From positions 17,021,501-17,085,500 of the forward strand of contig NC_092671.1 of the NCBI RefSeq assembly GCF_964355755.1: a DNA stretch of 64,000 nucleotides. Direction: 5' to 3'. This document shows positions 1 through 32,270 of the stretch, piece after piece. Under the pieces are notes generated by a model. It did not search any database, was not told the origin of the DNA, and saw only the letters and a program-made list of their open reading frames with translations. This stretch comes from Antedon mediterranea. Taxonomy: Eukaryota; Echinodermata; Crinoidea; Comatulida; Antedonidae. Every line of letters starts with the position of its first letter. Position 1 is the first letter of the stretch. Position numbers and translations under genes: made by a program.

Positions 1-3000
1 GAATCCTTGCAGCATCGTCAAGTGATATTAAACTAGAATCCTAAAAAAATAAAACAATTTAAAAAACATGTCAAAAAATAATCTGTTAATAAGCATCAAT
101 TTTGTACAAACACTTAATTCTGTATCTATTGTTTTTTATAAGTAATAAAAAGGCAATTAATTTGAAATCAAGGAAATCTAACAAACTACAGGAAACTGAG
201 CTCGCCTTGTCAAGATAGGATTTTTGATGTTATGTCTGGCTGCAACAGTACTGTACTATCTATATACTTTCCTTGGTGAGCAATGTCTGTTAAGGGGAGT
301 GGAACTGATCGTGTCACAGCCACAGATAAACTCTTTGATCTCTGGATTTCAATTGCTTTTATATATCAAAACGTTGTTTTTATTGTGTGTGGACAGTTGT
401 ATAATATGAAATAAAGTTTAAAATTAAATGTTATCATTCTCCTCAGGTCTGAAGGTCACTCTGTATGTTGTGTTCAAGAGGGTGTCAGCTTATTAACACA
501 AGGAGTTCAGTTTATTATACACCAAGGGGTCTACTTATTAAACACAAGGGGGTCAGCACATTATACACAAGGGGGTGAGCATATTACACACATAGGGGTC
601 AGCACATTACACACATAGGGGTCAGCATATTACACACATAGGGGTCAGCATATAAGACACATGGGGGTCATAATTTCTTACCTGTGATACTAAGAACAAC
701 ATGATGAATTTTTGACTCATCACACCAAGCGATTTTTCTTTCCTTGAATCAACTACAAAAATATAGAAACATTTCAAATTATTGTTTACAATGGAATACT
801 GCGAATTCCCTTACCATTACTAAATCCAATCACATTGCCTAAAGTGAACATACAGTAAAGAGTTCAAGACATTCCCAAACTGTGTAGTAGTTACTTGACT
901 GCTTGATGTTAATGGGTCAGTTATAAGCTAATTATCTTATATGATTCTTCCTTTATTCTATATATATAAAAACTATACTGTTTGGGGATCTGGGTATAAA
1001 CAATTGTTTGTTTGTATTAAAAAGAAAACCGTAATGACAACATTTGAGTTTAGGTGTTAGAGATGATGTGCTTATAAGTGACTAGCAGTCAAGAGTAGGC
1101 TTGTTAAGGTTTAGGTGTTAGAGATGATGTGCTTATAAGTGACTAGCAGTCAAGAGTAGGCTTGTTAAGGTTTAGGTGTTAGAGATGATGTGCTTATAAG
1201 TGACTAGCAGTCAAGAGTAGGCTTGTTAAGGTTTAGGTGTTAGAGATGATGTGCTTATAAGTGACTAGCAGTCAAGAGTAGGCTTGTTAAGGTTGAGGTG
1301 TTAGAGATGATGTGCTTATAAGTGACTAGCAGTCAAGAGTAGGCTTGTTAAGGTTTAGGTGTTAGAGATGATGCGCTTATAAGTGACTAGCAGTCAAGAG
1401 TAGGCTTGTTAAGGTTTAGGTGTTAGAGATGATGTGCTTATAAGTGACTAGCAGTCAAGAGTAGGCTTGTTAAGGTTTAGGTGTTAGAGATGATGTGCTT
1501 ATAAGTGACTAGCAGTCAAGAGTAGGCTTGTTAAGGTTTAGGTGTTAGAGATGATGTGCTTATAAGTGACTAGCAGTCAAGAGTAGGCTTGTTAAGGTTT
1601 AGGTGTTAGAGATGATGTGCTTATAAGTGACTAGCAGTCAAGAGTAGGCTTGTTAAGGTTTAGGTGTTAGAGATGATGTGCTTATAAGTGACTAGCAGTC
1701 AAGAGTAGGCTTGTTAAGGTTTAGGTGTTAGAGATGATGTGCTTATAAGTGACTAGCAGTCAAGAGTAGGCTTGTTAAGGTTTAGGTGTTAGAGATGATG
1801 TGCTTATAAGTGACTAGCAGTCAAGAGTAGGCTTGTTAAGGTTTAGGTGTTAGAGATGATGTGCTCATAAGTGACTAGCAGTCAAGAGTAGGCTTGTTAA
1901 GGTTGAGGTGTTAGAGATGATGTGCTTATAAGTGACTAGCAGTCAAGAGTAGGCTTGTTAAGGTTTAGGTGTTAGAGATGATGCGCTTATAAGTGACTAG
2001 CAGTCAAGAGTAGGCTTGTTAAGGTTTAGGTGTTAGAGATGATGTGCTTATAAGTGACTAGCAGTCAAGAGTAGGCTTGTTAAGGTTTAGGTGTTAGAGA
2101 TGATGTGCTTATAAGTGACTAGCAGTCAAGAGTAGGCTTGTTAAGGTTTAGGTGTTAGAGATGATGTGCTTATAAGTGACTAGCAGTCAAGAGTAGGCTT
2201 GTTAAGGTTTAGGTGTTAGAGATGATGTGCTTATAAGTGACTAGCAGTCAAGAGTAGGCTTGTTAAGGTTTAGGTGTTAGAGATGATGTGCTTATAAGTG
2301 ACTAGCAGTCAAGAGTAGGCTTGTTAAGGTTTAGGTGTTAGAGATGATGTGCTTATAAGTGACTAGCAGTCAAGAGTAGGCTTGTTAAGGTTTAGGTGTT
2401 AGAGATGATGTGCTTATAAGTGACTAGCAGTCAAGAGTAGGCTTGTTAAGGTTTAGGTGTTAGAGATGATGTGCTTATAAGTGACTAGGCAGTCAAGAGT
2501 AGGCTTGTTAAGGTTTAGGTGTTAGAGATGATGTGCTTATAAGTGACTAGCAGTCAAGAGTAGGCTTGTTAAGGTTTAGGTGTTAGAGATGATGTGCTTA
2601 TAAGTGACTAGCAGTCAAGAGTAGGCTTGTTAAGGTTTAGGTGTTAGAGATGATGTGCTTATAAGTGACTAGGCAGTCAAGAGTAGGCTTGTTAAGGTTT
2701 AGGTGTTAGAGATGATGTGCTTATAAGTGACTAGGCAGTCAAGAGTAGGCTTGTTAAGGTTTAGGTGTTAGAGATGATGTGCTTATAAGTGACTAGGCAG
2801 TCAAGAGTAGGCTTGTTAAGGTTTAGGTGTTAGAGATGATGTGCTTATAAGTGACTAGGCAGTCAAGAGTAGGCTTGTTAAGGTTTAGGTGTTAGAGATG
2901 ATGTGCTTATAAGTGACTAGGCAGTCAAGAGTAGGCTTGTTAAGGTTTAGGTGTTAGAGATGATGTGCTTATAAGTGACTAGGCAGTCAAGAGTAGGCTT

Positions 3001-6000
3001 GTTAAGGTTTAGATGTTAGAGATGATGTGCTTATAAGTGACTAGGCAGTCAAGAGTAGGCTTGTTAAGGTTTAGGTGTTAGAGATGATGTGCTTATAAGT
3101 GACTAGGCAGTCAAGAGTAGGCTTGTTAAGGTTTAGGTGTTAGAGATGATGTGCTTATAAGTGACTAGGCAGTCAAGAGTAGGCTTGTTAAGGTTTAGGT
3201 GTTAGAGATGATGTGCTTATAAGTGACTAGGCAGTCAAGAGTAGGCTTGTTAAGGTTTAGGTGTTAGAGATGATGTGCTTATAAGTGACTAGCAGTCAAG
3301 AGTAGGCTTGTTAAGGTTTAGATGTTAGAGATGATGTGCTTATAAGTGACTAGGCAGTCAAGAGTAGGCTTGTTAAGGTTTAGGTGTTAGAGATGATGTG
3401 CTTATAAGTGACTAGCAGTCAAGAGTAGGCTTGTTAAGGTTTAGGTGTTAGAGATGATGTGCTTATAAGTGACTAGGCAGTCAAGAGTAGGCTTGTTAAG
3501 GTTTAGGTGTTAGAGATGATGTGCTTATAAGTGACTAGCAGTCAAGAGTAGGCTTGTTAAGGTTTAGATGTTAGAGATGATGTGCTTATAAGTGACTAGC
3601 AGTCAAGAGTAGGCTTGTTAAGGTTTAGATGTTAGAGATGATGTGCTTATAAGTGACTAGCAGTCAAGAGTAGGCTTGTTAAGGTTTAGGTGTTAGAGAT
3701 GATGTGCTTATAAGTGACTAGCAGTCAAGAGTAGGCTTGTTAAGGTTTAGGTGTTAGAGATGATGTGCTTATAAGTGACTAGCAGTCAAGAGTAGGCTTG
3801 TTAAGGATTAGGTGTTAGAGATGATGTGCTTATAAGTGACTAGCAGTCAAGAGTAGGCTTGTTAAGGTTTAGGTGTTAGAGATGATGTGCTTATAAGTGA
3901 CTAGCAGTCAAGAGTAGGCTTGTTAAGGTTTAGGTGTTAGAGATGATGTGCTTATAAGTGACTAGCAGTCAAGAGTAGGCTTGTTAAGGTTTAGGTGTTA
4001 GAGATGATGTGCTTATAAGTGACTAGCAGTCAAGAGTAGGCTTGTTAAGGTTTAGGTGTTAGAGATGATGTGCTTATAAGTGACTAGCAGTCAAGAGTAG
4101 GCTTGTTAAGGTTTAGGTGTTAGAGATGATGTGCTCATAAGTGACTAGCAGTCAAGAGTAGGCTTGTTAAGGTTTAGGTGTTAGAGATGATGTGCTTATA
4201 AGTGACTAGCAGTCAAGAGTAGGCTTGTTAAGGTTTAGGTGTTAGAGATGATGTGCTTATAAGTGACTAGCAGTCAAGAGTAGGCTTGTTAAGGTTTAGG
4301 TGTTAGAGATGATGTGCTTATAAGTGACTAGCAGTCAAGAGTAGGCTTGTTAAGGTTTAGGTGTTAGAGATGATGTGCTTATAAGTGACTAGCAGTCAAG
4401 AGTAGGCTTGTTAAGGTTTAGATGTTAGAGATGATGTGCTTATAAGTGACTAGCAGTCAAGAGTAGGCTTGTTAAGGTTTAGGTGTTAAGAGATGATGTG
4501 CTTATAAGTGACTAGCAGTCAAGAGTAGGCTTGTTAAGGTTTAGGTGTTAGAGATGATGTGCTTATAAGTGACTAGGCAGTCAAGAGTAGGCTTGTTAAG
4601 GTTTAGGTGTTAGAGATGATGTGCTTATAAGTGACTAGCAGTCAAGAGTAGGCTTGTTAAGGTTTAGGTGTTAGAGATGATGTGCTTATAAGTGACTAGG
4701 CAGTCAAGAGTAGGCTTGTTAAGGTTTAGGTGTTAGAGATGATGTGCTTATAAGTGACTAGCAGTCAAGAGTAGGCTTGTTAAGGTTTAGATGTTAGAGA
4801 TGATGTGCTTATAAGTGACTAGCAGTCAAGAGTAGGCTTGTTAAGGTTTAGGTGTTAAGAGATGATGTGCTTATAAGTGACTAGCAGTCAAGAGTAGGCT
4901 TGTTAAGGTTTAGGTGTTAGAGATGATGTGCTTATAAGTGACTAGGCAGTCAAGAGTAGGCTTGTTAAGGTTTAGGTGTTAGAGATGATGTGCTTATAAG
5001 TGACTAGCAGTCAAGAGTAGGCTTGTTAAGGTTTAGGTGTTAGAGATGATGTGCTTATAAGTGACTAGCAGTCAAGAGTAGGCTTGTTAAGGTTTAGGTG
5101 TTAGAGATGATGTGCTTATAAGTGACTAGCAGTCAAGAGTAGGCTTGTTAAGGTTTAGGTGTTAGAGATGATGTGCTTATAAGTGACTAGCAGTCAAGAG
5201 TAGGCTTGTTAAGGTTTAGGTGTTAGAGATGATGTGCTTATAAGTGACTAGCAGTCAAGAGTAGGCTTGTTAAGGTTTAGGTGTTAGAGATGATGTGCTT
5301 ATAAGTGACTAGCAGTCAAGAGTAGGCTTGTTAAGGTTTAGGTGTTAGAGATGATGTGCTTATAAGTGACTAGCAGTCAAGAGTAGGCTTGTTAAGGTTT
5401 AGGTGTTAGAGATGATGTGCTTATAAGTGACTAGCAGTCAAGAGTAGGCTTGTTAAGGTTTAGGTGTTAGAGATGATGTGCTTATAAGTGACTAGCAGTC
5501 AAGAGTAGGCTTGTTAAGGTTTAGATGTTAGAGATGATGTGCTTATAAGTGACTAGCAGTCAAGAGTAGGCTTGTTAAGGTTTAGGTGTTAGAGATGATG
5601 TGCTTATAAGTGACTAGCAGTCAAGAGTAGGCTTGTTAAGGTTTAGGTGTTAGAGATGATGTGCTTATAAGTGACTAGCAGTCAAGAGTAGGCTTGTTAA
5701 GGTTTAGGTGTTAGAGATGATGTGCTTATAAGTGACTAGCAGTCAAGAGTAGGCTTGTTAAGGTTTAGGTGTTAGAGATGATGTGCTTATAAGTGACTAG
5801 CAGTCAAGAGTAGGCTTGTTAAGGTTTAGGTGTTAGAGATGATGTGCTTATAAGTGACTAGCAGTCAAGAGTAGGCTTGTTAAGGTTTAGGTGTTAGAGA
5901 TGATGTGCTTATAAGTGACTAGCAGTCAAGAGTAGGCTTGTTAAGGTTTAGGTGTTAGAGATGATGTGCTTATAAGTGACTAGCAGTCAAGAGTAGGCTT

Positions 6001-8815
6001 GTTAAGGTTTAGGTGTTAGAGATGATGTGCTTATAAGTGACTAGCAGTCAAGAGTAGGCTTGTTAAGGTTTAGGTGTTAGAGATGATGTGCTTATAAGTG
6101 ACTAGCAGTCAAGAGTAGGCTTGTTAAGGTTTAGGTGTTAGAGATGATGTGCTTATAAGTGACTAGCAGTCAAGAGTAGGCTTGTTAAGGTTTAGATGTT
6201 AGAGATGATGTGCTTATAAGTGACTAGCAGTCAAGAGTAGGCTTGTTAAGGTTTAGGTGTTAGAGATGATGTGCTTATAAGTGACTAGCAGTCAAGAGTA
6301 GGCTTGTTAAGGTTTAGGTGTTAGAGATGATGTGCTTATAAGTGACTAGCAGTCAAGAGTAGGCTTGTTAAGGTTTAGGTGTTAGAGATGATGTGCTTAT
6401 AAGTGACTAGCAGTCAAGAGTAGGCTTGTTAAGGTTTAGGTGTTAGAGATGATGTGCTTATAAGTGACTAGCAGTCAAGAGTAGGCTTGTTAAGGTTTAG
6501 GTGTTAGAGATGATGTGCTTATAAGTGACTAGCAGTCAAGAGTAGGCTTGTTAAGGTTTAGGTGTTAGAGATGATGTGCTTATAAGTGACTAGCAGTCAA
6601 GAGTAGGCTTGTTAAGGTTTAGGTGTTAGAGATGATGTGCTTATAAGTGACTAGCAGTCAAGAGTAGGCTTGTTAAGGTTTAGGTGTTAGAGATGATGTG
6701 CTTATAAGTGACTAGCAGTCAAGAGTAGGCTTGTTAAGGTTTAGGTGTTAGAGATGATGTGCTTATAAGTGACTAGGCAGTCAAGAGTAGGCTTGTTAAG
6801 GTTTAGGTGTTAGAGATGATGTGCTTATAAGTGACTAGCAGTCAAGAGTAGGCTTGGAGCTCTTTTTTTACAGCAAGAACAACAAAACTGTTACAGATGA
6901 AATCAGTTTTTTACCTTTTTCCTCAGCAGTTTGCGACTTTTGGTTTGATATATTTGAGGTATCAGATAATGGCCTTTTCTTGATCTTAAGATCTATTTCA
7001 AAATCGGAATTCATTTGCAGCTTTTTCAATTTCTCCATTCTTGCATTATAACTCTCTTTGTTGCCAATTTCCTGAAAAAGTACAATTTGATACTACTGTA
7101 TTAATAAGAAGCCGAGGAACATCAATTAAATTGAGGGAACCAAAAGTTTCCCTGGTATTGAATTAGCCAATGGCTGTATTAAGCATTCACACATAGGCTA
7201 AGAGAAAATTTAAAAATTCTCCTAAGTGAATAAAATTTAAGGAAAATATGATTGGTGAATAAGACCCCTTCTTTTCTCTTGTATACAGTAGATGTTCGTT
7301 ATATTTACTTCAGAACTATTGATTAAGTAGTAATCTCTTAGTTGGACTTGGGTAGTCAAGTGGTTAGGACACGGACTGCCACACAATTCCTGACAACTCC
7401 CAGTCTACTCAGCTGTAAATAAGTACCTGGTTGGAAATACTAAGGAGGATAAGGCGCGTGGAAAGGAACTGGCCACCCTGCCACATAATGTTAAGGCTTG
7501 TCAAATGAGCTCCTAACAGCTCATTACTCTATTTTCAGAATTGAATACGGGACCATTTTTACCTAGTAATATCTTAAAACAAATACTGTATATAAAACCA
7601 GACACACATACCTGTAGCCTTGTTAATGTAGATAGGAGGTTTGCTTTACCATGCCAAACATACTTGTTCTTTGCTCTTCTGCTAACCATCTCCACGCTTT
7701 CTAGAACATTTACTATATCATAAATTCTACGTCTCTCAACATCTGCAATATAATGACCAAAATCATCAATATTCCCCAAAAGATTGCATGAAGGCAAAGG
7801 TAATTTATTTAAATAAAAGAGTAAGACAGTGGCGTAACAGCTATGAGCCCTCACTGGCTAAACACAGGGACCCCTGAGCAGTTCACCGAGGAAAAGCAGG
7901 CATTAAAATATACTGAAAAAGGCTAAAGTGCCAGCGTCGAGGGAAAATTCATCATCATTAATTGTTCATTTACATTAAAATTATACATTTTAAGAACTTG
8001 ATGAAAGAAAGATATTTATAGTCGATGTTCATTACTGTACAAGCACTTACGAAGATCTTTGGAAACCGTGTCTAGTGGTATCGCTAAAACTTGTCCCTCT
8101 TCTGGATAATCTGGGTAACGGGACAGAAATCTAGGAGAACAAATTTTTAAATGCGTTTTATGCAAGTTTTGGAATTTAAGACTGAGCACATAGAAATTAA
8201 GAGTAATTTTCATTCAAAACGATCTGCATTTATGATTCTAAACATGGATTGAGAATGGGTATACGCCAGCTGCGTCACAATTTTAATATTAACTTACTTT
8301 TGACACAATAATCCTAAAGATTTTGACTTGCGACTGGTACAAGTATTGTTCTTATCATTTTCTTCATCTCCTTGAGAATCATTAGCTTCCAATACATCGT
8401 CTCTGGATTTTTCCGCAGCCTCAATCAAGTTATTAAATCGTTTTCGATTCTCCCGATCACGTATCACCGGACTTAAGACGTTCATCAGCATCTTCAAGTT
8501 CGCAGTTGGCGTGACTGGATCGTGGTGTGACGACTCGCATAATTTCTTTGGCGTTACTATAGACGGCTGTCTACTTTCATCAATAGACAAAGGATTTTCT
8601 GAATAATCATTTATTTCCCTTTGTATCAAATTTGAGTCATTAATTCGTGATTTTTCTACAGTTTGTAGCGATTGATTATTGTCAGTATTTACTATAGAAA
8701 TGTTTGAAAATGGGACGGGAAAATCAGTTGCTCCATCTGAATCAGAATCACTTTCAATTGGTTTATAATCTCTTGGCAGGAGGAGGTTACCCAAATCTGA
8801 TATAACTTCAGACAT
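1..8815 (-). CDS. E2F7/8: Atypical E2F transcription factor (E2F7/8 type), partial at 3' end
   Basis: Atypical E2Fs are nuclear repressors of S-phase genes that bind DNA without a DP partner because one chain carries two winged-helix domains. Six coding exons join in frame: 8298-8815 (ATG at 8815), 8051-8130, 7612-7742, 6915-7071, 682-752 and 1-40 (runs off the window). All internal borders are GT-AG. The first exon gives an acidic, Ser-rich N-terminus, then [20 protein letters not shown], a block conserved in E2F8, then [12 protein letters not shown]. Across the next junctions this becomes [10 protein letters not shown] and [20 protein letters not shown], the first DNA-binding domain with its RRxYD motif, ending KNKYVWHGK. 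Exon 682-752 ([18 protein letters not shown]) and exon 1-40 ([11 protein letters not shown]) open the second DNA-binding domain. The second RRLYD motif is outside the window. The ATG follows a 25-nt untranslated leader behind an acceptor at 8841. E2F7 and E2F8 are usually one gene in invertebrates, so I do not choose between them. Confidence 0.95.
478..668. repeat. Short minisatellite, about 23-bp unit
   Basis: Roughly seven imperfect copies of a unit like CACATAGGGGTCAGCATATTA, the last three nearly identical. The array lies in the E2F7/8 intron between the exons at 1-40 and 682-752, ending only 14 bases from the latter's donor. Confidence 0.85.
1050..6855. repeat. Large 61-bp minisatellite, about 95 copies, in an E2F7/8 intron
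   Basis: The unit starts GGTTTAGGTGTTAGAGATGA and ends TAGGCTTGTTAA. Most copies are identical. A 62-bp variant with ACTAGGCAG instead of ACTAGCAG is concentrated at about 2.48-3.5 kb. Other variants are TTTAGATG, GTGCTCAT, GATGCGCTT and TTAAGAGATG. A paired variant (GGTTGAGG followed by GATGCGC) occurs at 1291 and again at 1901, exactly ten units later, so blocks of units have been duplicated. The array starts and ends abruptly, and no long reading frame spans it. Confidence 0.97.
7345..7515 (+). mobile_element. tRNA-like SINE remnant
   Basis: The head TAGTCAAGTGGTTAGGACAC reads like the D-arm/A-box side of a tRNA. A body follows that has no coding potential and ends near a short inverted GAGCT motif. 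It lies in the E2F7/8 intron next to the exon at 7612-7742. The B box is decayed, so the family assignment is weak. Confidence 0.4.
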
Positions 8816-19600: not shown

Positions 19601-22600
19601 ACATGTAAACTGACAAGCATCAGCTTCTTTTGGTGCTATTGAGCGTTTTAATTGTGAATTGTATAAAAAAAAAAAAAAAAATTACTTTCTATATAATCTT
19701 TGAAATGTCTGTACACTTCTGAAGTGTTGTTAAATGTATTTATATTATTAAATTTAAAAATAAGAAATGAAAAAACTTTTTAGTTCAGAATATAAGGTGA
19801 ATGACTGAAATAGATGTACAGAAGTTGATCCAGGAGAAGCAGGCACCCTTTTTAAGTTCACCCAACCACACATGGATGCATCCCTGACATAATCATTGTT
19901 ATTAAAACAGCAGGGATCTATCAACTTTTATAATAACAATATGTGGTCATTAACCATTGCTTTATAAACAAAATTGGTTGGAGTCAGTGAAAAAATAGAT
20001 TATGTTCCCATACTAGCGATTGCAATACAATTTCCTCAACTAAATGTTAAACATACCCTCATAGGAATAATGTCGGTATCAGGTCGAAGAGCTCCAACTT
20101 TACGAATGTAACTCAAACTGAAAAAAAAGTATAGAAAGACATTGAGTTTTCCAGATTTGTTTTGGGCAGAATGGTATATTATTTTTCTTTCTTGTAGCAT
20201 AATAATATGCCTTACCATTTTGCTGCAGTGAGTTGCATTTTCACTGGCTTGTTCCTTGCAAGAAGACTGTTAAAATGATGGTACAGTGGTTCTCCATTGT
20301 ATGATGCTGAAAAGAAAGACACAGGTGGTTAAACCAAACAAAATACTGTTTTTCAATATAGGTTTAAAAATGAAATTTATTCTTTCTAGCAGATAATTAG
20401 GTGATCATTTAGAATAAAATGATCACCTATTGTTATTGTATAAAATCTTTATTAGGTGATCATTTAGAGTCACGTTATAAAAATGATCACCTATAATTCA
20501 TTGAAGTGACGAATTAAATTCTAGTTTCTATATTATGATTATCAATTAGTGACACTCTTCCAACAATAACAAAAACTCCTGGTACTAAACTATGATTTGA
20601 CATTTGACCGCAGAATCCTGGGATTGGGAAGTAAGGTACAACAACAAAACAAACATTTTTCTAACCTGATGCAACTCTTGATGACACTTGTTGATTCTCG
20701 TAACACATCGCAGCAAAACAACAAAGGGCTGGCAACTGAACCTGAATAATACATTTTTAAAAGGAAAATTGAAAAAGGGTTTGTTCCAGTTCCAGCAAAT
20801 ATATTGATAAAAAAAGGAATTGTATTCCAAACATTTGTGTCATAAAATAATAATTTCAATGTTCTGGTATTCAACCAAATAACAACATCAACAACAATTA
20901 TAACATAACAATTTGGCTATTAACAGTGTGTTGGATGTTAAACTACTGATCGTGAGATCATAGGTTCAAATCAAATGCTTGTAGCATTTCTTGTATCCTT
21001 AAGCTTTGTCTACACTATCAAATTTTATGTGACAAAACTGTGCCAATTACTTTGACATTATGGAAGTATGTTTCAATACATGTTTGATCTGAATTAACCA
21101 GGGTAACAATATGTACAGAACTTATAAATTTAGGATATTATACTTATAATAATAATGTTCAAGTCACAGACGACATTTACCTTCGGTACATTACTTGACA
21201 GGAGTGGCGACAGTGCCTGAACCGATCCATGTTGAAGTAAAATCAGTTGATGCTCATGGGTCTAAAGAGATAAATTGAGATATAATGTATATAAAAAAAT
21301 ATCAATTTATAAAATAGGAAATCTGTGGAAGGCAATCATTGGCAAAAATACAATTACAAACATACAATGTTTGTTTGTTTGTTTCATTTATTTATTTTCC
21401 ACACTAAAAAAGAACAGATATTTATACTTTAGAAAAAAAAAAAAGAAAACAATGTGTGAAAGGAGATCAAAAAAAGTAAAAAATACTTTAAGCATTGACC
21501 ACCAGTAAGCAGTTGTCAACATGACAAGGAAACTAATAACTCTAAAATATTGACAAAAACAAATATTAAAAAATAATTATAATAACATTGAATGTTATCA
21601 AATAATTATGCCATAAAAATTAAAACTAACTAATACAAGGTTATTTACTATAATATCAACAATAACAGATTTTTAAAAAAAAGATAAATTATGAAATGTA
21701 GTCGTTAATGAGTGATTTCTTAAAGGTGATTTTAAAACTGGCTATGAATTTCTTAGATTTTAGCTGAATTGGTAGTTCCCATAATTTGGGGCCAATATAT
21801 AGTATTCGTGGAAATACACAATGTACTCCTTTTCTGCGACTATGTTGCATGTTTCTGCGAGTATATATTTTCACAAATACATTGTATGTTAGTAATTATA
21901 TTTTTGGCGGTGTTTGCCTTTCAAAGAATTACATCAAAGAGAACAGACATTAAAAAAACAATAGTCAGACCAAGAATAATTACCACATACGGTAAAAGAC
22001 AATATTATAATACAATGCTTTGGTCGTTCTGTTTTTACTTTCGGAAGGAAACATTCTTTTACTTGTCTTAAATTGTATCTAGATTTAGGCGATATTGGCA
22101 AAATATGGTGTAGTCTATGGAAAGGGTGTTTGAGTTTCTGAAAGTAATCCTTGCACAGTCTAGTTCGGCATTCACAAAGCACAGCACACTGGGCCATAGC
22201 TTTGTTGTAGCTGAGCTCTAGAAACATCATTCATTCATTCAGAGTGCTTGTGCTGGGGAAAATGAGCCCTTGTAATTAATCATAGGCCTAGTGAAATCAT
22301 CTTCCTGCAGATGTTACCAACAGTCTAATTCTGGCCATTTATTAAATTTACCTTACAACAGTGGGCCAAAATACTCGCAACATTTTCTTGCGTAGATAAT
22401 GATCTTGAAAGTAACTGTATCAAATGCGGTATGATAGTTGCATCCTGAAAAGAACAATAATAAAACTATTTTGTTTTGGTTTTTGAACTGATAACGTAGT
22501 TATGATAACAAACAGAATAACTTGTATTCCTTTCTATAGTAAGAAAACAATTAATAAATAAATTGACAAATTTACCTCGTACAAAATATTGATTGGAGCA

Positions 22601-26777: not shown

Positions 26778-28096
26778 CCTATTATCAGGCTACTAGCCCT
26801 GCAGCTCTCTCTCCTCCTCTCTCTATCTCGACAATTTTCTACATGATGAAAAATGTCAGTAGTGTAATAGTGCGCATGCGTATACATTTAAAAGGTTTAG
26901 GTTTTTCATTTCAAGATTATTTTTCGTATTCTTCATTCTGTTGATATATAATATAATGTATTTATATTCATATAGGCCTAAATCATGAGTAAGTTAGTAA
27001 CTCACATTCTACACCCATAACTTTGTGGATATCGTGCGAGTAAAACACATCTCCTTATCATATAGATTAACACTACCACCCGGCGTTGAATAAGTCACGG
27101 ATGACAAAAAAAGAGATGAGAACGTTGACAGAAATAACTGTTTTAAATTGTTGGCCGGGTTTGAGAAGATATCGACTAGAGGTTTACATAGAAGTTCTTA
27201 ATTGCCTAAAATGATTCACTTGGCCCCAATAAACAATTATTATAGGTTAATTTGGCCTATCTATTGAGTTTTTCAATAAGTTCCATGACCTATCTATTTA
27301 AATTACTCATTTCTCGGTGCATTAATTTAACTATACACTAGTAACATGATACTTTAGGCATAATTATTGTGAAAGAAGAAAAAAAAAGTAAAAAAGATTG
27401 GTTAGTGTAATGAGTGTAACACAAAATGAGTAGGCCTAGGCCCTAATGAAAAAAACGGATTGGAAAAACGAAGAAACAGGTGATTGTGATATTTTGTAAA
27501 CGTACGCATAAGATGCGATAAAATAACACACTCTAGAGGAAACGTATCATTAATATTATAAATAAGAGGGGAAATTGTTGTTTTTTTTTTACTTTTATTT
27601 AACGAATCTAATAAAATTGGAAACAAACTTAAACTCAATCTTTTAAGGGACAGAAGCTGCTTTCTGAAAAAAAGTTATAGTAATTTGTAATTATAGTAAA
27701 TTATAGTTTCATTTCTTTGCACGAAAATATTCTGCACATAATTCTTAGGCAAAATCATAGATAATGTGTTTATAATGAAAACATATCCCTCGGTGCCTGC
27801 CTTTAGAGCCTACATATTTTCTTGTGTAAGTCTATACAATTAAAGCTCCCCAGAAATTGTTGAAATAAACTGTACTAGGCCTATAACACGAAGCCGAATC
27901 TAGCAGATGAGACTACATTCAACAATCCACACCATCCTTCAGTTCCAAATTGTTGTAAGGTTAACATGAGAGCAAATGGTCACAGTGAACTGACGATGAC
28001 GGAGATATTTCGATTTATACGTTCAAGCTCATTGGTTGTCTTTTCCATAATTGAGAACAATTCGGCTTGTCGACACGTTTTCACACACAAGGGGTA
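26778..28096. other. Intergenic, no gene seen
   Basis: AT-rich sequence with homopolymer runs and scattered TAGGCCTA words. No exon-like reading frame with splice sites was found on either strand. Confidence 0.6.
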
Positions 28097-28614
28097 ATCG
28101 CAAATTGCACTTACACATTCATTATCATGTTAACATTCACAATTTATCGAATATTATTACATACATTTCACAGTTTAGTTGTTCTGAAGGCATGCTGATG
28201 CGAACAAAATCCAACTTATACATTATACAATGTAATAATCGTAGTTATTTAATGAATAAATAATAGTTGATAAATTATTGATAATTAGTAACTATACATT
28301 GCTATTTATAAAATAATTACAATACTTGTTTTTCTTCGGCAAATCGAGTTTATCAATCGCAAATTGCACTTACACATTCATTATCATGTTAACATTCACA
28401 ATTTATCGAATATTATTACATACATTTCACAGTTTAGTTGTTCTGAAGGCATGCTGATGCGAACAAAATCCAACTTATACATTATACAATGTAATAATCG
28501 TAGTTATTTAATGAATAAATAATAGTTGATAAATTATTGATAATTAGTAACTATACATTGCTATTTATAAAATAATTACAATACTTGTTTTTCTTCGGCA
28601 AATCGAGTTTATCA
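28097..28614. repeat. 259-bp direct tandem duplication
   Basis: 28097-28355 and 28356-28614 appear identical by eye, from ATCGCAAATTGCACTTACAC to AAATCGAGTTTATCA. The lack of divergence implies a very recent event or an assembly duplication. It contains no gene. Confidence 0.95.
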
Positions 28615-30426
28615 ATGATTTAGTATAAACTGAATCTCTTGGTAAATTTGCTAGATCTTCGATTAAACTTCATATCTAATGTTGCTACTTATCGCATGTT
28701 TCAGAAATCTGTCTACTAAAAAAGACCAGATTAATAATAACGAGAAATGCTCTTCGAAAAATAAGCCGATATGGATTCTGTTCCCCCAATGGTAGTTATG
28801 CAGCCCCTCAGCAGATTTCACAGGGGTGGGGAAGAACACTCTCTACGTAAATTATTAGGGCCTATAGTTATATTTCGACTGTACAGATACATACAGGTCA
28901 TGAAACATCATCAAGTTCATTTAATTGTCCAATATTGTTTCTGATGCCAGTGGATGTCAATCATTTGCGTTCATTCTGCCAGAATCCTAATAAACATTTC
29001 TGCATTCCTTTTGTTAAAGATGTATTGTCCCCCAAAAACATGAAAAATGAAGATCAATTAAATCAGACTTTGAATATGTTATTTTGTAGTTTTAATAAAG
29101 TTAATCCTTTCCATAGGAAAAAAAAACGAAAAAAAAAATGTTTTCACTTGTAAAATGACAAAATAAATGGTTACATTCAACCAAAAATCCATTGGCTGGC
29201 AGCCAATTTGATCATTTTTTGCTTTAAATTACATTTTTTCAGGTAAATACATTTTTTTTTCGATCCAATTTTTGGTAAAAAAAGTAGATAACTATTATGT
29301 TACATTAAAATGGAATATTCAACAAAAATTGTTAAGAATTATTTTTTCAGGGGGACAATACATCTTGAATCAAAACAATTTCTCATTTTGAATAAATTCT
29401 GTGTTTTATTGGCTCTTACCTGACGTCCGGTTTGCAAGTTTTAGAGAAGTCTTAATATTCTTATTTATACAAAAAGAAACAAACTTACTCAACGTACAGA
29501 GTTGCGAACACAAGTGATTAGGCGCGCAATGTCTAACGACGACTAGCGTTAAAAAAGATTATTTAAACAAACACCAATAAACAATCGAAGGTCAAGCATA
29601 TTTTATTGATCAAATTATTATCACATAAAGCAAAAATAAAGCGACAAAGTCACATTCATAATAACTACTTCGTGTCTTCAACAAAACAATACACTTTAAC
29701 TCTGTACAAACATATCTTAGACATACAATAATATTTATAACTCTTTGTTGGGACGATGGATTAACCATTCTGTTTTCAGTCATGTTAAAACGCTTGTATC
29801 TCTTTCATGGATATATTAAACATTACACATAATGTTTTTCGACAAAAAAAACTTGGAAAATATTAATTTCAGAATATGATTTAGGTTTCATTTGAAAATA
29901 GCACGGATGGTTAATGTTGTCATTCGATACTCCTTCGAGATCATACATCATTTTATTTTTATCCTCTAAACTTAACAATTGCACAAATTAATTCACTTCC
30001 ATCCCTTCAAAGAATATTCAACCTTGAATATTTATATTGTTAAAAATTTGATATTATTCAAAACATTCTTCCAAATCCGATATGATATTTATCAAACAAT
30101 AATTTGTTAATTTCAATTCATTAATATTTACACAAATCCTAAATTGTGATAGTCCAGTGCGCAACTCTGCTCACCTCGAGACTCGACAGTTCAAACGTTT
30201 ACCAATATTGACAACCATAAAAGATGATCTTAAAGGTGGTTTGTTGTGGAAAATCTAAAAATTAAAATAAAGAAAACTTGAGGTGTGATGAATCAACTAC
30301 AAAATATGGTGACTTGATGACAGGACAACTTGGTAGGCTGTAAGACAATTTCAAAAACGATGATTATTTGAGTTATCTATCAACGTTAGTTACAATTACG
30401 CCTATGATCAAATATTTCTAAACCGT
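28615..30426. other. Intergenic with one MITE and donor-like sites
   Basis: Apart from the MITE at 29018-29365 there is no coding exon. Minus-strand donor-like sites at about 29429 (GTCAG|GTAAGA), 29490 (GTTGA|GTAAGT) and 30168 (CTCGAG|GTGAGC) follow CpG-containing sequence. They could be distant untranslated first exons, but nothing ties them to ARMC8. Confidence 0.4.
29018..29365 (+). mobile_element. MITE, TTAA/GATGTATTGTCCCC family, copy 2
   Basis: TTAA at 29014-29017 is followed by AGATGTATTGTCCCCCAAAA, and the other end is GGGGGACAATACATCT. The inner CCATTGGCTGGCAGCCAATTT is shared with copy 1. The right-hand TTAA has mutated to TTGAA. Confidence 0.85.
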
Positions 30427-30858
30427 TTCTCCAATTAAAGACCACTCAAATTAAATACCCTCCAATTAAAGACCAATGTACCGCGACCCCGTATGGTCGT
30501 CTATATTCCCACCTAACTAATTAGACAGCAAAGATCACGATTTGGGTGGGCCCAACTGAAAATCAAACTTTCCCTTCAGTTAAGAATTACTTTTAAAAAC
30601 AAACATTGATGTATTTTCGGAGAGATAAACCATTGAAAATTTGAAGAAAATCAGAAAAATACTGCAGTTATTGAAACAGACAATCCTAATTAAGGTAGGG
30701 AGCAAGATAGCCATTCTGATAGTTAATTTCCCTCTAAATAGGGTATTTGTAGGACTGATTCCAGTGCCGGTTTTTAGTTGGAGGGATTCTAATTAGAAAC
30801 CAAAGCTACAGAGATCACTAAAACCTACGACCCAAAAAAGTGGTCTTTAATTGGAGAA
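30427..30858. mobile_element. MITE with TTCTCCAATTAAAGACCAC ends
   Basis: Left end TTTCTCCAATTAAAGACCAC and right end GTGGTCTTTAATTGGAGAA are inverted copies. A second CCTCCAATTAAAGACC sits just inside on the left, and GGAGGGATTCTAATTAGAAA inside on the right. No reading frame. It ends 80 bases past the stop codon of the secreted-peptide gene, in or just beyond its 3' untranslated region. Confidence 0.8.
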
Positions 30859-30937
30859 GACCTAAATTGTGTATTCAATGTTTGTATCCATATGTACCTT
30901 TTTTGCTCCTAAAATATGTTAAAATTACCTTAAAACT

Positions 30938-31847
30938 TTAAAACCAATCGTCATCTTCTCGTTTAGGAAGGCTGAAAGAAATTTTTAAACACAAGTCAGT
31001 TAGATTCAGTTAGATATGAGAATTTAAAACCATAAACTTTTAACATCATCATTATTTTAAATCATATTAACGTTACTGTCATACGTCATCGACGTCAGTT
31101 ACAGACATCTACTGTAGATGATTGGTCAAAAGTTATGTATTGGTAAAAAGTTAAACATGTCAGTAATGAAACAAACGTATTAGTTTCTCTATATGGAGTA
31201 ATATATTTCAACGCCTTAGTATTATTATTATCTTAAAACGAGATTGATTATGTATACTTTAGGTTTATTGCATTAACAATTATGTAATACTGCTTTGATA
31301 TGAATGAAAATATATTCAACGATAACGTCTTTGCAACGTGTTAATCGTCAGTGTTTTACACAGGGGATAACCGGCCAACGCCTTGAATTATCTGAACGAT
31401 TGGATGAATATGCAGATACAGGTTTAGTCAGATCATGGATTCTTTAGGTACTAATGTCATGATGTGTACGGCTGCGATGAGTCTTTTCCCAGCGTACACC
31501 AATATATATTACCATGTATAGGCCTAAATTAAAGATATATTGTTCCTCTGGAATTTTTGTTTTTTTGTTTAATTAAATGTCTAATTTTATTAATCTAATG
31601 AATCTATTTTCTTGTATGATTTTGAGGGGACAATACATCTTTAATAATTTACATACTCATTTTCCCATTCGCCTGAATCTGTCATAAATGTTCGTCTGTA
31701 GAGTCTGTTTAGGAAAGCGGCTCTAGCCTGCATTGGGTCAGCTGATCGCCCATAATTCCTGTTTCTGTGTTTTTGGTAGAAATTGCCAGCTTCGCATACA
31801 TATAAACACAGTGTTGTTACCAAAATGACTGCTAGGATTTTATTCAT
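30938..31847 (-). CDS. Small secreted peptide precursor, 74 residues, family unknown
   Basis: Two coding exons, 31657-31847 and 30938-30971, join at GA|GTATGT and CTTTCAG|CCTTCC with phase preserved, giving 74 residues. Residues 1-20 (MNKILAVILVTTLCLYVCEA) form a typical signal peptide. The rest starts GNFYQKHRNRNYGR, where Gly-Arg could yield an amidated Tyr. A basic segment SADPMQARAAFLNRLYRR follows, then TFMTDSGEWENDLPKR and the acidic end EDDDWF. RR and KR are candidate convertase sites. There are no cysteines after the signal peptide. The start codon lies six bases inside the exon behind a strong acceptor (TTTTTTAG), so a 5'-untranslated exon lies upstream. If the intron is retained, the frame ends EYVNY after 68 residues. 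The features suit a neuropeptide/hormone precursor or a cationic defence peptide with an acidic tail. I recognise no family. Confidence 0.7.
31533..31640. mobile_element. MITE, TTAA/GATGTATTGTCCCC family, short copy beside a splice donor
   Basis: TTAA target copies at 31529-31532 and 31641-31644 flank AGATATATTGTTCCTC and, at the other end, GAGGGGACAATACATCT. At 108 bp it is a deleted member. It sits in the intron of the secreted-peptide gene, 12 bases from the exon edge. Confidence 0.85.
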
Positions 31848-31892
31848 CTTGATCTAAAAAATAAAAGAAAAATACATGAAGTTAATTGATGA

Positions 31893-32270
31893 GCTTTGGA
31901 CCTTACCACGTTGAAACACCGGTTCTCGTCAGATAAACGAAGTTAAGCAACGTTGGGCACGGGTTAAGCTTGGATGGGAGACCATCTGGGAATACCGAGT
32001 GCTGTATATGGAGCTGGGGTCCCATTAGGCATTTGGAATCAGCACTGCTGACTCTTACGGCAGCCCCTACGTCTAGTATCTGCCTGACGTATTGGCATAT
32101 ACCTCTCCTCTGGTTAAGGTGGACACTGCACGAGAGAAGCCCTTTGTCAATGATAGGACCAGCCAAAGGTGCTTTAAACAGTCCTCGTTTAATCATCATT
32201 CAGCAGATGAATGTAAGACTAATTGACATGAAGTCGACCATATATAAATGGGCAGGGAAGGAGTACTAGT
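31893..32270 (+). mobile_element. 5S-rRNA-derived SINE (SINE3-like)
   Basis: 31893-32011 is a full-length 5S rRNA-like head. ACCTTACCACGTTGAAACAC, CACCGGTTCTCGTC, GAAGTTAAGCAACGTTGGGC and GGATGGGAGACCATCTGGGA align in order with animal 5S rRNA, so the internal pol III promoter regions look intact. One G is missing in GAAA(G)CACCGG, and the 5'/3' stem no longer pairs well (GCTTTGGA against GCTGTATA). About 260 bases of unrelated body follow, including CAGCACTGCTGACTCTTACG and GGTGGACACTGCACGAG. A 5S head on a non-5S body is the definition of a SINE3-type element. It lies antisense in the long putative first intron of the secreted-peptide gene. Confidence 0.8.

Follow-up and report, generated by a model that had tools for sequence, protein, structure and literature searches.

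Among living echinoderms, crinoids form the sister group of all the rest. Their neuropeptide precursors have been treated in a broad published survey (PMC9793003), and in the sections of it on which we draw, CFWRTCPVG-NH2 was synthesised as the crinotocin of Antedon mediterranea, with Trp-Arg at positions 3 and 4 distinguishing crinoids, and figure legends 6 and 7 place an intron directly before the start codon in both SALMFamide genes of Anneissia japonica. According to the same sections, the transcripts of A. mediterranea and F. serratissima were translated at a length of at least 75 residues and the A. japonica data came from a protein file; predicted proteins of fewer than 75 residues were therefore excluded from two of the three data sets, a blind spot in which a protein of 74 or 68 residues would have been missed in those two species. 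Tiny precursors are ordinary in echinoderms, as the portion of PMC6586643 used here gives 50 residues for Ajnp9, 39 for stichopin and 62 for GLRFA, with Ajnp9 composed of a 20-residue signal, a 13-mer, Gly and KR. The Ajnp9/Spnp9 type may be limited to Echinozoa, as stated in the part of PMC5627052 considered here.

The locus described here lies on the minus strand of a 64,000-nucleotide stretch of A. mediterranea DNA (the window), where an exon at 31847-31657 and an exon at 30971-30938 join in phase and translate to a precursor of 74 residues. From the ATG at 31847 to the GT at 31656, coding exon 1 (31657..31847, ending in phase 2) reads MNKILAVILVTTLCLYVCEA then GNFYQKHRNRNYGRSADPMQARAAFLNRLYRRTFMTDSGEWEN. 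It is made up of the 20-residue signal peptide MNKILAVILVTTLCLYVCEA (31788..31847), a predicted first peptide, GNFYQKHRNRNY, with Gly33 as putative amide donor and Arg34 as a monobasic site (31746..31787), the basic segment SADPMQARAAFLNRLY with a dibasic RR in the context R-L-Y-R-R (31692..31745), and TFMTDSGEWEN. The proposed coding exon 2 (30938..30971) adds DLPKREDDDWF and a stop, and the proposed intron (30972..31656, GTATGT...TTTCAG) has a small transposon-like repeat inside it. Read without that splice, the ORF (31641..31847) has 68 residues plus a stop and ends EWENEYVNY. Dibasic sites in the spliced precursor are RR at 51-52 and KR at 67-68, the latter present only if exon 1 is spliced to exon 2, and cysteine is absent after residue 20. 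The translation thus bears out the features listed in the initial annotation, namely NYGR, RR, KR, the EDDDWF tail and the absence of post-signal cysteines, along with its strongly basic middle (residues 21-52, net charge +7). Directly 5' of the ATG, TTTTCTTTTATTTTTTAG is a good acceptor (AG at 31855-31854, minus strand, behind a 16-base tract with 14 pyrimidines) and probably ends a 5' non-coding intron; an upstream non-coding exon is therefore likely and the gene, if real, exceeds the interval 30938-31847.

We consider that the best reading of this locus is a candidate, putatively lineage-restricted precursor of the neuropeptide type, and we assign a probability of roughly 0.4 to a small crinoid gene of this kind, whose product would have 74 residues with the splice to exon 2 and 68 without it. 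The type is a kind of precursor rather than a homology family, and the candidate has its features: a signal peptide by a simple rule and, in the sequence, a peptide bounded by basic residues with a Gly (NYGR, RLYRR, and KR if spliced), cleavage being predicted. Supporting this reading are the exact features and their phase, the pre-ATG introns of the A. japonica SALMFamide genes and the existence of very small echinoderm precursors. It is also supported by the presence, in the same genome, of an amidated-peptide gene from the same hormone class: the 9.7 kb surrounding and preceding the only neurophysin match contain an exon that encodes a signal peptide together with CFWRTCPVG-GKR, which is crinotocin with its Gly-Lys-Arg. 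This oxytocin-type sequence marks the genome as that of a crinoid close to Antedon, which narrows the echinoderm affinity assumed in the initial annotation.

The candidate is like the crinoid precursors described in the cited sections of PMC9793003 in its crinoid origin, signal peptide, basic sites and Gly amidation. If real, it would plausibly, though this is unproven, be another member of an ordinary kind, the small peptide precursors of echinoderms, and would add a testable peptide. No peptide spelled out for PCNP1-20 in the main text descriptions of PMC9793003 matches the candidate, and those PCNPs that are given there by length (27, 28 and 32 residues, amidated) or by their cysteines are a misfit to its 12-mer before Gly33. 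The calcitonin, eclosion hormone, kisspeptin, luqin, MCH, orexin, PrRP/sNPF and vasopressin/oxytocin precursors, as presented in the sections of that survey used here, also misfit in their cysteines, C-terminal motifs or lengths. Ajnp9 and Spnp9, from the sea cucumber and sea urchin, resemble the candidate in their tiny size, 20-residue signal, peptide of 12-13 residues, Gly and basic site (PMC6586643 and PMC5627052, in the parts used here). Unlike the candidate, Ajnp9 has 50 residues and a dibasic KR, a comparison made by description and not by sequence.

The claim that the precursor falls outside the known families held in Pfam, NCBIfam, PDB sequences, its own genome and a set of 16 known peptides. 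Pfam gave no family match, the NCBIfam search returned no credible match (three bacterial models with E values of 0.1-0.15, far below cut-off), and PDB sequences gave none either (two porins, E 0.58 and 2.5). A paralogue search of the 354-Mb assembly (18 contigs) recovered the candidate itself and a single 28% match (E 2.11) that contains a stop. The single-sequence structure model (mean pLDDT 67, pTM 0.31) has a helix at residues 38-54 with low confidence, and Foldseek with this model found one meaningless match (E 8.5). A text search of the open-licence literature for the strings NFYQK and SADPMQ returned no paper.

Among the 16 peptides, the best alignment to the unspliced mature part was that of CRH (p 0.111 before correction). 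NPY and NPF are recognised by a C-terminal RxRF or RxRY amide and by homology that spans about 36 residues, luqin precursors have a C-terminal cysteine pair, and neuropeptides B and W combine a WYK start with a GRAAGLLxGL core and RR further on. Although the predicted C-terminal Tyr amide after basic residues recalls both NPY/NPF and RYamide/luqin, the peptide ends RNRNY rather than RxRF or RxRY, its shuffle p values were 0.764 for NPY, 0.190 for PYY and 0.964 for NPF, and there was no Pfam match. Luqin/RYamide was rejected because there is no cysteine after the signal and the ending is NY rather than RW or RY; the luqin C-terminus is an RW, RY or RF amide in the relevant section of PMC9793003. 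The vertebrate neuropeptides B and W share with the candidate an aromatic residue and Tyr soon after the signal, followed later by RAA-x-L and RR, but this likeness was rejected, with alignment p values of 0.149 and 0.314 against shuffles and no Pfam match at E 10.

Whether the ORF is a gene at all has to be weighed against the composition of its surroundings. We regard as less likely than not, though well within consideration, the alternative that there is no gene and that chance produced this AT-rich ORF with its signal-like start, within intergenic DNA that is littered with repeats and separates ICA1 from the next gene. The signal peptide, called clean in the initial annotation, passes a simple tripartite rule of our own (not SignalP) with cleavage at CEA|GN, after residue 20, and in that sense it stands. 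As a signal-peptide ORF, however, the candidate is just mildly above chance. In a null of 60 simulated 64-kb sequences (third-order Markov), in which ORFs of 60-130 aa were counted (28.7 per 64 kb, 36 in the window), signal-bearing ORFs numbered 1.05 per 64 kb, a yield that favours the chance reading, and there are 3 in the window. Adding a soluble remainder reduced the null to 0.5 (window 3), and further adding GK or GR and a dibasic site reduced it to 0.03 (window 3, of 36). The other two of these three window ORFs (+21886 and -55124) look chance-like, from which it follows that the Markov null underestimates and is too kind. The ORF at 21886 on the plus strand, with its signal-like start and TTYGKR, warns of such look-alikes, and it weakens the neuropeptide-type reading while favouring chance.

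The other evidence on this question is divided. An ORF with a signal and a soluble remainder that also has a purine at -3 and, no more than 25 nt upstream, a loose YHAG is expected 0.12 times per 64 kb and occurs once in the window, which supports a neuropeptide-type gene; that signal, acceptor and purine are found combined with RLYRR and an amidation site speaks against chance. So does GC content, which is 0.44 in the mature part and 0.313-0.335 in the surrounding 4-kb blocks. Exon 1 as a whole has a GC of 0.41, above its surroundings, and scores +5.7 bits up to the donor, which also supports a gene. The training set of this codon model consisted of 29 receptor ORFs, which biases it toward membrane proteins; it gave +3.8 bits for the unspliced exon, -4.3 for exon 2 and +1.5 for the spliced whole, and 16 of the 48 ATG ORFs of at least 55 aa in the window, real exons and repeat ORFs included, outscored the candidate. 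Its weak coding score accordingly counts for chance and, together with the weak donor and the negative exon 2, against the neuropeptide-type gene. Repeats flanking both sides and sitting at the exon's end are likewise in keeping with chance. For exon 1, which lies between them, the genome search recovered no further copy, and this supports a gene. If the product is real, it could also be a cationic antimicrobial peptide, as the initial annotation proposed, in which residues 21-52 (+7) would kill microbes and the acidic tail (-4 unspliced, -6 spliced) would neutralise this basic part until cleavage. The charges and the modelled, low-confidence helix are compatible with this, but mean hydrophobicity is -0.50, the hydrophobic moment of 0.35 is reached by 37.5% of the helix's own shuffles, and a Gly-Arg site after a polar 12-mer better suits a signalling peptide. 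Because the basic helix is no more amphipathic than its shuffles, the defence reading is weak and we think it improbable.

Given a gene, we judge the spliced and unspliced endings about equally probable. The segments, their phase and the 74-residue translation of the two-exon model are as originally proposed; the junction is unconfirmed, as the donor is weak, the exon 2 score is negative and a comparable unspliced reading of 68 residues exists. By a generic matrix, the donor TGA|GTATGT scores -2.0 bits, equalled or bettered by 16.7% of 3,456 minus-strand GTs, whereas the crinotocin donor reaches 2.9 bits and a further donor in the window 3.7. In the acceptor tract of exon 2, 10 of the 16 bases are pyrimidines. 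Fifteen acceptor-like sites lie within the following 2 kb; the one at 30971 is alone in giving a dibasic tail with a net charge of -3, and one other gives a tail with RR and a charge of 0, a comparison by tail content that is post hoc.

A real gene without the splice at 31657, ending EWENEYVNY and drawing its poly(A) signal from the abutting repeat, is a sub-case of the neuropeptide-type gene that we rate, taken by itself, as unlikely. It is favoured by the in-frame TAA at 31643-31641 with AATAAA 50 nt downstream, as well as by the weak donor and negative exon 2 score. Both the stop and the signal involve a small MITE-like repeat (31529..31644) that is bounded by TTAA on each side and has terminal inverted repeats; its right TTAA holds the stop and its body holds the AATAAA (31591-31586, minus strand). 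The genome has 22 matches of this repeat besides the window copy, and all 11 that were fetched (11/22) carry CATCTTTAA and then diverge, the equivalent in the window ending at base 31644. L055 and L058 have common flanks, so that about 10 of the 11 copies are independent. Since AATAAA lies at most 120 nt from the repeat end in 10 of the 11, the repeat must have brought the poly(A) signal with it, which tells against this ending. The opposite repeat end could be placed in 6 of the 11 copies, with at most 2 mismatches in four (L050, L052, L053 and L056), and these four and the window element have TTAA at both ends and no further duplication outside them. TTAA may therefore be the target-site duplication, and the stop may be host sequence that predates the repeat; if TTAA is instead repeat sequence, the stop arrived with it and the ending is not ancestral.

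Matches of 30930-31880 elsewhere in the genome are confined to 31551-31663 and touch the last 7 bases of exon 1; for exon 2 the genome search found no other match. Upstream, exon 1 is adjoined by a SINE headed by 5S rRNA in the opposite orientation (31901..32229, plus strand, reaching back to 31892 with the Rfam 5S match of 49.5 bits at 31892-32010), of which 40 scored copies out of 1117 candidates are 83-90% identical to the window copy, with one 46-base piece at 96%. A second MITE-like repeat (30427..30867), downstream of exon 2, has a 20-nt perfect inverted repeat (30427-30446/30839-30858).

If the locus is an expressed neuropeptide-type gene, its transcript would probably begin with a 5' non-coding exon, and the signal peptide would direct the product to the secretory pathway, with cleavage after A20. 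A convertase would then be expected to cut at R51-R52 (R-L-Y-R-R) and, less surely, after R34 in NYGR. Monobasic convertase sites usually have Lys or Arg at P4, P6 or P8, and Arg34 has neither residue at any of the three, a point against the neuropeptide-type reading. A carboxypeptidase would trim the Arg and the amidating enzyme could convert Gly33, yielding GNFYQKHRNRNY-NH2 as the presumed main product, possibly acting on a G-protein-coupled receptor; SADPMQARAAFLNRLY might be a second product, with the acidic tail serving as a spacer. A more specific proposal, which we hold only tentatively and think rather unlikely, is that GNFYQKHRNRNY-amide is a crinoid-specific hormone hidden by the length cut-off in two of the three surveyed feather stars, and that its precursor ends either in the spliced acidic KR tail or in an intron-retained tail polyadenylated through the transposon that abuts the stop.

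On the same strand, the candidate is flanked by ICA69 (Pfam PF04629), an armadillo-repeat gene that is presumably ARMC8-like, and an E2F (PF02319). Adjoining the E2F exons is a 61-bp tandem array (1048-6856) of about 95 copies with 99% match and a GC skew near +0.58, and a 259-bp unit is perfectly duplicated in tandem at 28096-28616. On the plus strand, an ORF at 48336-48614 matches UPF0489 weakly, at E 0.0037 and short of the Pfam cut-off, and is a possible exon of an unannotated gene. Elsewhere in the genome, among the matches listed, 7tm_1 receptors form dense same-strand clusters at C3:4.81-4.89 Mb and C3:31.55-31.65 Mb, which are probably local expansions.
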